This document shows positions 2,844 to 6,284 of a stretch of 42,406 bases of DNA, one piece after another. Under the pieces are notes generated by a model. The model was not told the origin of the DNA and searched no databases. It worked only from the letters and a program-made list of their open reading frames with translations. Position numbers and translations under genes: made by a program. The number at the start of each line of letters is the position of its first letter. The stretch's first letter is position 1. Origin of the DNA: Flavobacteriaceae bacterium (GTDB lineage: Bacteria; Bacteroidota; Bacteroidia; Flavobacteriales; Flavobacteriaceae); assembly GCA_017851655.1 (NCBI GenBank), contig JAFMMH010000010.1, positions 1-42,406 on the forward strand, in the 5' to 3' direction.

Positions 2844-3074
2844 ATGAACAAACCACTACTTCAAAAAGGATTAAAAAAAATGAGCTTGTTTTTGCTGTGT
2901 GCATTTATTGGCCCAGTGGTAGTTCATCAAGCCTTTAAAAATCAAGCACATCCACTTTACGTCCCTGTGCTCATCGCAGGAATTCTCTTTTTGATCGTTT
3001 CTTTTTATTATGGTTTTTCTGGGATTAGAACCTTAGTCAATGCCTTATTAGGTGAACGCAAAACAAAACTTTGA
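2844..3074 (+). CDS. DUF6095-type small membrane protein
   Basis: A 76-residue protein with two hydrophobic segments (about residues 14-29 and 38-57) and a basic N-terminus and C-terminus. The sequence around [12 protein letters not shown] and [12 protein letters not shown] matches my recollection of the DUF6095 family found in Flavobacteriaceae, often next to thrS. Function is unknown. It lies 58 bases before the chosen thrS start, in the same direction, and probably shares its transcript. Membrane insertion is predicted from hydrophobicity only. Confidence 0.7.
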
Positions 3075-3132
3075 AGAATCGATTGCGTGCTATCAAGAGA
3101 CCACTTATCTTTGTCGTCCATTGAATAAAACT

Positions 3133-5079
3133 ATGATTGAAATTCGTTTTCCTGACCAATCGATTCGCTCCTACCCAAAAGGAACTACTCCTTTTGAAGT
3201 CGCACAGAGTATCAGTGAAGGATTGGCCCGTAATGTGCTGTCTGCTAAATTCAACTCACAAACTGTAGAAGCGACTACCCCTTTGCACGAAGACGGAAAT
3301 ATTCAACTTTTTACTTGGAACGATAAAGAAGGAAAAACTGCATTTTGGCATTCCTCTGCACACGTCTTAGCACAAGCGCTTTTGGCACTTTACCCAAACT
3401 GTAAGTTGACCATAGGTCCCGCTATTGAAAATGGATTTTATTACGATGCCGACTTTGGCGATGAAAATCTTACTGAAAAGGATTTAGTTGCCATAGAAAA
3501 GAAAATGCTGGAGTTTGCACGAGAAAAATTCGAATTTAAAATGCGTAGTAGTACTAAAGCGGAGGCTATGGCATACTACCAAAAACAAAACAATCCATTC
3601 AAAGTTGAATTAATTGAAAACCTAGAGGATGGTACGATTACTTTTTGTGACCATGCAGACTTTACCGATCTCTGTCGGGGAGGTCATATTCCTCAAACTG
3701 GAGTAATTAAGGCTGTCAAACTGACCAATATAGCGGGAGCTTATTGGAGAGGTGATGAGACCAAACCTCAACTAACTCGGATTTATGGTATTTCTTTTCC
3801 TAAACAAAAAGAACTTACCGAATACCTTGAAAAGGTTGAAGAGGCAAAAAAAAGAGATCATCGTAAATTAGGGAAGGAATTAGACCTTTTTACTTTTTCG
3901 AAAAAAGTAGGTCAAGGGCTTCCTCTGTGGCTACCAAGAGGAGCCGCACTTCGTGATAGATTAGAAACTTTCTTGAAAAAAGCACAGGCAAAAGCAGGCT
4001 ATGAGCAAGTAATTTCCCCTCATATCGGAAACAAGGAACTCTATATGACTTCGGGACATTACGAAAAATACGGAGCCGATAGCTTCCAACCAATACACAC
4101 CCCTGCTGAAGGAGAGGAGTTTTTACTCAAACCCATGAATTGTCCTCACCATTGTGAAATCTACAATGCAAAACCATGGAGCTACAGAGATCTTCCCAAA
4201 CGATATGCAGAATTTGGAACGGTTTACCGATATGAACAAAGTGGTGAACTACACGGTTTAACTCGTGTTCGAGGCTTCACCCAAGATGATGCTCATATTT
4301 TCTGTATGCCAGAACAGTTAGATGAAGAATTTAAAAATGTAATCGACTTGGTGCTTTATGTTTTTAGTTCATTAGGTTTTGATGACTTTACGGCACAAGT
4401 TTCCTTACGCGATCCTGAAAAACCAGAAAAATATATTGGATCTACCAAAAATTGGGAATTAGCAGAACAAGCAATCCTTAGTGCTGCCAAAGAAAAAAAC
4501 TTAGATTACGTTATCGAAACCGGAGAAGCTGCTTTTTACGGCCCCAAACTGGATTTCATGGTGAAAGACGCACTTGGTCGCCAATGGCAATTAGGAACCA
4601 TCCAAGTAGATTATAACCTCCCAGAACGTTTTGAACTTCAATATAAAGGAAGTGATAATGAGTACCACAGACCCGTCATGATTCACCGAGCTCCATTCGG
4701 AAGTTTAGAACGTTTTGTTGCAATTCTTTTAGAACATACTGGTGGAAATTTCCCGCTTTGGTTAATGCCAAATCAAGTAAATATTCTCTGTGTGAGCGAA
4801 AAATATAAAAATTACGCCTTAAAAGTTTTAAGTTTCTTGGAAAATCACGAAATTCGCGCCCTCTTAGATGATCGAAATGAGACCATTGGGAAGAAGATTC
4901 GAGAATCAGAAATCACCAAAGTGCCTTATATGATCATACTGGGAGAAAAAGAAGCAACTGAAAACACTGTTTCTTTAAGAAAGCATCATGAAGGTGATTT
5001 AGGTAGTTTTAGCCTAGAAAACCTCGTGGAAAAATTAAATAATGAAATAAAAAGTAGTCAAGCTACTTTTAATGTTTAA
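3133..5079 (+). CDS. thrS: Threonine-tRNA ligase
   Basis: ThrRS charges tRNA-Thr in the cytoplasm. From the ATG at 3133 the protein is 648 residues, the normal length. An in-frame ATG at 3052 would add 27 residues with no family resemblance and overlap the upstream gene, so it was not used. Domain order is N-terminal TGS (about 1-62), the editing domain with its HxxxH pair at His73 and His77, the class II catalytic core, and the C-terminal anticodon-binding domain (about 545-640). The three zinc ligands that recognise threonine are present as Cys337 (in NCPHH), His388 (in DDAHIF) and His518 (in MIHRAPFG). The editing site indicates it can clear mis-acylated Ser-tRNA-Thr. infC follows after 16 bases. 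Confidence 0.97.
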
Positions 5080-5095
5080 CTAAAAACAAGAAGAC

Positions 5096-5650
5096 ATAGC
5101 AATACGTAGACGAAGAACGAATCGCCCTGGAAGGGTAATTAAAGTAGATCCTCATCGCATTAATCAAAAGATTACCGCGCAAGAGGTTAGACTAGTTGGT
5201 GATAATGTTGAAGTCGGTGTTTACTCACTCAGCAAAGCATTAGTATTAGCCCAAGAATTGGAACTAGACCTAGTTGAAATTTCACCAAAAGCTTCGCCTC
5301 CCGTATGTAAAATATTAGAGTATAAAAAATTCTTGTACGAACAGAAAAAAAGAGAAAAGTCTTTAAAGGCCAAAACAAGTAAAATTATCATAAAAGAAAT
5401 TCGTTTTGGTCCGAATACAGATGAACATGATTACGAATTCAAAAAGAAACATGCTGAAAAATTTCTGAAAGAAGGAGCTAAACTAAAAGCCTTTGTATTT
5501 TTCAAAGGGCGTTCAATTGTGTTTAAAGAAAAAGGTCAAATCTTATTGCTACGTTTAGCACAAGATCTTGAAGAGTTAGGAAAAGTAGAACAAATGCCAA
5601 TTTTGGAGGGTAAAAAGATGACCATCTTTATTGCTCCAAAGAAAAAATAA
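5096..5650 (+). CDS. infC: Translation initiation factor IF-3, apparent AUA start
   Basis: IF-3 binds the 30S subunit, keeps it apart from 50S and proofreads the start codon. The 184-residue reading begins ATA-GCA-ATA (I/M-A-I-R-R-R-R-T), just after an in-frame TAA at 5081-5083. It contains the full N-domain ([17 protein letters not shown]), the lysine-rich linker ([10 protein letters not shown]) and the C-domain ending in FIAPKKK. No in-frame ATG or GTG occurs before codon 50, and the first TTG is at 5258, inside the N-domain after its essential first strands; starting there would leave 130 residues. A non-canonical AUA (or nearby AUU) start is therefore likely. In E. coli infC starts with AUU, which lets IF-3 repress its own synthesis; the same logic is inferred here. 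rpmI and rplT follow. Confidence 0.93.
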
Positions 5651-5661
5651 AAAGAGGAGTC

Positions 5662-5859
5662 ATGCCAAAAATGAAAACAAAATCGAGTGCTAAAAAAAGA
5701 TTTAAACTTACCGGTAGCGGTAAAATCAAAAGAAAGCACGCGTTTAAGAGTCACATCTTAACCAAAAAATCAAAGAAAAGAAAGTTGAAATTGACCCATG
5801 ATGGGTTGGTTCATAAAAGCGATGAAAAAAACATCAAGCTTCAATTACGATTAATTTAA
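5662..5859 (+). CDS. rpmI: 50S ribosomal protein bL35
   Basis: A 65-residue, very basic protein beginning [20 protein letters not shown], the characteristic N-terminus of bL35, and the normal length. It lies 11 bases after infC and before rplT, the standard infC-rpmI-rplT order. The assignment is secure by sequence and by context. Confidence 0.97.
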
Positions 5860-5939: not shown

Positions 5940-6284
5940 ATGCCAAGATCAGTAAATTCAGTTGCTTCAAGAGCAAGAAGAAAGAAAATTTTAAAACAAG
6001 CAAAAGGTTTCTTCGGACGTCGTAAAAACGTTTGGACAGTTGCTAAAAATGCGGTAGATAAAGCGATGCTTTATGCTTACAGAGACCGTAAGACCAAAAA
6101 ACGTAACTTTAGAGCCCTTTGGATTTCTCGTATAAATGCTGCCGCAAGACTTCACGGCATGTCTTACAGCCAATTCATGGGTAAGGTTAAAGCAAATAAT
6201 ATTGACCTCAACAGAAAGGTTCTAGCAGATTTAGCAATGAATCATCCAGATGCCTTTAAAGCAGTTGTTGACAAAATAAAATAA
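5940..6284 (+). CDS. rplT: 50S ribosomal protein bL20
   Basis: A 114-residue basic protein beginning [16 protein letters not shown], with the conserved stretches [23 protein letters not shown] and [11 protein letters not shown] that contact 23S rRNA during early 50S assembly. Length is normal for bL20. The 80-base gap after rpmI contains no ORF. In other bacteria L20 represses this operon by binding its mRNA, and the gap could hold such a site, but I cannot demonstrate a fold from the sequence. A strong terminator follows seven bases after the stop codon. Confidence 0.97.

Follow-up and report, generated by a model that had tools for sequence, protein, structure and literature searches.

In Escherichia coli, infC starts at AUU and is subject to autoregulation by its product, translation initiation factor IF3 (PMC5472188, PMC13009471), which represses non-canonical start codons including that of its own gene (PMC5472188). 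An AUA start of infC has been observed in Staphylococcus aureus by retapamulin ribosome profiling (Ribo-Ret), and autoregulation was suggested there as well (PMC13009471). Streptomyces infC starts at ATC and is misannotated in most Streptomyces (PMC5472188), and the start codon of Listeria infC is ATT (PMC13068326). In Flavobacterium johnsoniae, autoregulation of another gene of the translation machinery, rpsU (bS21), involves a very strong Shine-Dalgarno sequence and ribosomes lacking bS21 (PMC9976891). Ribosomes of the Bacteroidia mostly sequester their anti-Shine-Dalgarno sequence. Exceptions are rpsU, rpsR and some further genes encoding ribosomal proteins; infC is not mentioned in the main text of that report (PMC9976891).

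The window, i.e., the whole stretch of DNA analyzed here, comprises 42,406 nucleotides of the genome of a Flavobacteriaceae bacterium (1,851,921 bases in 130 contigs), and the named contigs that matched best came from ‘Candidatus Arcticimaribacter’ and from marine Flavobacteriaceae MAGs, TMED48 being an example. The genes are arranged in the order thrS-infC-rpmI-rplT, all on the forward strand: the thrS open reading frame (listed at 3052–5079, its 5′ end being nominal), infC (5096–5650), rpmI for ribosomal protein bL35 (5662–5859) and rplT for bL20 (5940–6284), the latter two with ATG starts. The infC frame follows an in-frame TAA at 5081–5083 and continues with codons for K-Q-E-D, ATA (5096–5098), GCA, ATA and CGT to a stop at 5648–5650, yielding 184 amino acids if read from AUA. 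The product is a whole IF3, as it matched the infC equivalog TIGR00168 with 184.4 bits (cut-off 60) as well as IF3_N and IF3_C. A preliminary description of the locus had noted that no ATG, GTG or TTG lies near the in-frame stop and that starting at the first such codon would remove 54 N-terminal residues. Both statements proved correct: the first standard codon of the frame is TTG at 5258–5260, 54 codons downstream of ATA, and at residue 59 of the frame numbered from 5084 it lies inside the Pfam domain IF3_N (residues 26–92), which would be cut. A search against Rfam between 2500 and 7000 returned two matches, each far under the gathering score and each beyond infC.

To compare the start region, infC was read in 318 loci, consisting of 30 loci from the window’s genus, 80 named contigs, 88 loci from order, class and phylum searches, and 120 stretches. 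A profile derived from members of this set detected IF3 in all of them. Removal of 13 loci that were identical around the start left 305 distinct ones. A Flavobacteriaceae-type set of 121 was made up of 24 loci of one family (f1), the 30 of the window’s genus and 67 of the 80 named contigs, the titles of which mostly read Flavobacteriaceae, but also Flavobacteriales, Cryomorphaceae or Bacteroidetes. The order, class and phylum loci (46, 68 and 70 distinct ones, respectively) were the best-scoring among the matches listed plus stretches chosen by family. Matches occurred in 193 of 196 genomes for the order, 284 of 296 for the class and 289 of 296 for the phylum; these samples overlap and include the window’s own family.

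The preliminary description had placed the infC start at ATA 5096 and pointed to the aligned codon of relatives as a means of judging this. In the Flavobacteriaceae-type set, the codon aligned with position 5096 was ATA in 118 of the 121 distinct loci and ATC in the remaining three, and ATG did not occur between the in-frame stop and the conserved core in any of them. Neither ATG, GTG nor TTG was present in this interval in 113 loci; the other eight contained only GTG or TTG, located 11 or 13 codons after ATA in seven cases and before ATA in one (L006). By comparison, ATA accounts for 363 of 1509 ordinary isoleucine codons of the same cores (24%). Codon 3, also isoleucine, was less uniform than codon 1 (ATA 96, ATT 20, ATC 3, TTA 2; Fisher p = 1.7e-5 for the 121 loci and 6e-4 for 76 clusters), indicating that codon 1 is more constrained. 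Since codon 3 is also rich in ATA, part of the conservation of ATAGCAATA may have a different cause. Control patterns for rpmI and rplT, which left the first codon free, found ATG at all 254 rpmI starts and all 128 rplT starts; in another 51 and 177 loci, respectively, the gene was either not detected or lay beyond the locus. Among the 30 loci of the genus, codons 10–12 after ATA (Pro-Gly-Arg) and likewise codons 3 and 5 after ATA (Arg) displayed silent changes only, and the residue varied at codons 7–9, 14 and 16. Upstream of ATA, the residue differed in 88 and 70% of pairs at codons −3 and −2, with codons −1 and −4 being more conserved (19 and 13%). Taken together, the comparison strongly supports that translation of infC begins at AUA 5096, a start other than AUG, GUG or UUG.

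With respect to gene order, the locus resembles that of E. coli: thrS lies upstream, rpmI and rplT lie downstream, the codon is of the AUH type and the start is near the thrS stop. However, the codon is AUA and not AUU, and inspection of the E. coli sequence revealed a GGAGG separated from the start codon by 8 nt (GGAGG-N8-ATT), whereas no Shine-Dalgarno sequence precedes the AUA of the window. The parallel to E. coli drawn in the preliminary description had left out this difference, which also separates the window from many other loci of the Bacteroidia. None of the 121 Flavobacteriaceae-type loci had GGAGG 5–10 nt before the start codon, so that they do not belong to the GGAGG-N8-AUH type; at the same distance, GGAGG was likewise absent from 254 rpmI and 128 rplT leaders. 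Matches to at least 6 nt of AAGGAGGTGA occurred in 13 of the 121 loci versus 8 of 121 after shuffling, and in none of those 13 did a start-like in-frame codon follow within 2–14 nt; a Shine-Dalgarno sequence of this kind was therefore rejected. S. aureus shares with the window the gene, the AUA codon and a suggested autoregulation, but belongs to a different phylum and has a predicted extended Shine-Dalgarno sequence (PMC13009471); its AUA start was seen by ribosome profiling, that of the window is deduced from comparison. In Streptomyces, the start is also non-standard, but it is ATC (PMC5472188). The rpsU gene of F. johnsoniae, from the same order, would be similar to infC of the window in that both encode parts of the translation machinery that act on their own mRNA via an unusual start region, but rpsU relies on a very strong Shine-Dalgarno sequence (PMC9976891), whereas infC has a weak codon and none. 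As no extended Shine-Dalgarno sequence precedes infC in the window, its regulation would not be of the rpsU type. In the window’s genome (G000), rpsU itself is preceded by AAAGGAGGTG shortly before its ATG (locus L322, around 1453–1462, contig C37), matching the arrangement described for the autoregulated bS21 gene of Flavobacteriales (PMC9976891). A search of this genome for the 3′ tail of the 16S rRNA returned nothing under two mismatches and three places at that level; possibly, the assembly lacks the rRNA operon.

The situation is different in other orders of the class. Among the matches listed, 25 of 68 loci from 16 of 41 families had GGAGG 5–10 nt before an in-frame ATA (18), ATT (5) or ATC (2), and the spacing was exactly 8 nt in 17 of these. 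When all 64 triplets located exactly 8 nt after GGAGG were counted in the class loci, ATA was found in 15 loci and the next triplet, GCA, in three. As controls in the same loci at 5–10 nt, ACA/ACT/ACC occurred five times, GTA/GTT/GTC twice, and ATH shifted by one or two bases three times and not at all, respectively. Some of the 25 loci are probably due to chance, e.g., L245, where ATT is located far within the coding extension. The combination of GGAGG and ATH was present in 3 of 46 loci from other families of the order and in 3 of 70 from other classes, again among the matches listed. The exact 8-nt spacing before ATA or ATC was seen in non-flavobacterial Bacteroidia at L142, L144, L145, L152, L159, L161, L168, L243, L254, L265, L274 and others. 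As E. coli infC has it as well, the arrangement is shared across phyla. Its occurrence in the Bacteroidia stands out given that the anti-Shine-Dalgarno sequence of their ribosomes is mostly sequestered.

Among the matches listed, the region before the core lacked any standard codon in 36 of the 46 loci representing other families of the order, in 28 of the 68 representing other orders and in 44 of the 70 representing other classes; it contained ATG in 6, 15 and 12 loci of the three groups, respectively. Where the motif X-A-[IL]-[RK] could be aligned in these matches, X was ATA (10), ATC (3) or CTG (2) in the 15 loci of the order and ATA (4), TTG (3) or ATC (1) in the 10 of the class, where the remaining two, CGA and CGT, are non-start codons caught by the loose pattern; the single match in other classes, GGC, was uninformative. 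The first [ILMV]-Ala codon in other classes was ATC in 28 of the 70 loci among the matches listed. Judging from these sequences, the infC start codon appears to shift among near-cognates of AUG by lineage. A CTG stands at the expected infC start in L115 and L131 (f2) and in L124, L125, L134, L136 and L207 (f6), both families of the Flavobacteriales. ATG before the core was found in every locus read of f46 (2/2), f49 (3/3), f69 (2/2) and f89 (2/2), among the matches listed. In L146, L156, L163 and L256, from families of the class, an ATG near the thrS end could be the infC start, and class families of this kind are possibly lineages that lost the unusual codon.

Upstream of the start, the Flavobacteriaceae-type loci share a block, GTTTAAYTWAAA (GUUUAAYUWAAA), beginning 21–24 nt before ATA. 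The matching sequence of the window, GTTTAACTAAAA at 5074–5085, begins 22 nt before AUA and overlaps the thrS stop. Allowing up to two mismatches, the block was found in 68 of 76 representatives compared to 7.6% of shuffles and 4 of 76 rpmI leaders, with the consensus derived from the same sequences as then counted and the shuffles preserving base composition only. It was kept in 18 of the 19 loci in which it lies wholly outside thrS. An adenine occurred at −12 in all 76 representatives, at −13 in 96% and at −11 in 92%. As the same A tract is present in rpmI and rplT leaders (76–98%), this half of the block is general to flavobacterial starts, and the tract stands in register with the infC ATA. 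For F. johnsoniae, the upstream positions under discussion include adenines at −12 and −13, and A at −3 is favorable (PMC6847099); the base at −3 of infC was G, not the favorable A, in 65 of 76 representatives. The AUA of the window was predicted to be partly paired (mean unpaired probability 0.36, versus a mean of 0.76 over the 76 representatives). A role of the block as promoter was rejected as unlikely: TAnnTTTG is the Bacteroidetes promoter element, to which the block fits poorly, and single-position conservation 5′ of the block was low down to −34. Also rejected was a hairpin at the thrS end (around 5050–5070), which lies inside the thrS coding sequence and had a weak consensus fold of −1.1 kcal/mol, partly covarying with double changes in three of seven pairs (12 of the 30 genus loci). 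The thrS stop, 16 nt upstream of AUA in the window, was located 11–19 nt 5′ of ATA in 83 of 121 loci, making translational coupling of infC to thrS plausible.

As an overall model, we consider it quite probable that infC starts at AUA 5096, that IF3 limits its own synthesis through this codon and that ribosomes are placed by the upstream block without a Shine-Dalgarno sequence. At AUA, the third base would not pair properly with the initiator tRNA, and IF3 would destabilize these mismatched complexes as at the AUU of E. coli infC, so that abundant IF3 lowers and scarce IF3 raises its own synthesis. Ribosomes would probably be placed by the conserved block, including the A tract spanning −13 to −11, helped by the purine at −3, and part of the initiation would probably come from ribosomes finishing thrS 16 nt upstream. 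Self-repression by IF3 via AUA is likely and, in our analysis, the most likely mechanism. In reporter studies, non-canonical starts of other genes in S. aureus reached about 10% of AUG, and the AUA of ccpN up to 30% in rich medium (PMC13009471), and in Listeria output decreased in the order ATG, ATA, ATT (PMC13068326). The AUA start could also be real but merely keep IF3 low relative to its operon neighbors, without any feedback. The sequence evidence fits this equally well, and with no Shine-Dalgarno sequence in any of the 121 loci and the thrS stop so close in 83 of them, re-initiation could dominate. However, it is in infC, whose product rejects codons of this kind, that the unusual codon recurs in several phyla, and extra IF3 decreased re-initiation without a Shine-Dalgarno sequence in E. 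coli (PMC2268962); thus, feedback would be expected even with re-initiation, and we regard its absence as rather unlikely.

A shorter IF3 starting at a downstream standard codon, for which TTG 5258 would be the first candidate in the window, is very improbable. IF3_N would be truncated, the residues upstream of TTG 5258 are under selection, and the first standard codon downstream of ATA lies within the core in 114 of 121 loci at scattered positions. Even less credible is an IF3 that extends ThrRS through a frameshift or that begins at a codon farther 5′: thrS and infC are adjacent and in different frames, but an in-frame stop separates them in all 121 loci, 1–19 codons before ATA (at most two codons intervene in 35 of them), and the distance of the thrS stop varies from 11 to 78 nt (120 of the 121 loci).

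The preliminary description had further proposed that an AUA start would be a different codon with the same function as the AUU of E. coli, in another phylum. The AUA start stood, but its novelty as a codon did not, as non-AUG infC starts are already reported, with AUA in S. aureus, AUC in Streptomyces and AUU in E. coli and Listeria. Apparently new are the conservation of this infC start codon in Bacteroidota and its use without a Shine-Dalgarno sequence, on neither of which a report was found among the papers listed in searches of open-access literature. A tentative extension, which we consider possible but doubtful, is that Bacteroidota maintain IF3 feedback by two architectures, with GGAGG-N8-AUA in many other orders of the class, and the Flavobacteriaceae having dropped the Shine-Dalgarno sequence, its place in positioning ribosomes being taken over by the block about 22 nt upstream. 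The GGAGG before infC would then be one of the rare Shine-Dalgarno sequences of these genomes, and infC output from GGAGG-N8-AUA would respond to IF3 as well as to ribosomes with an exposed anti-Shine-Dalgarno sequence. Gene callers limited to ATG, GTG and TTG would be expected to shorten IF3 in such genomes. The results extend the unusual start codon of the IF3 gene to the Bacteroidota, whose ribosomes mostly ignore Shine-Dalgarno sequences. A natural AUA start obliged to work without one provides a system for studying how ribosomes find weak codons, and infC of the Flavobacteriaceae makes it testable whether feedback by IF3 requires a Shine-Dalgarno sequence.
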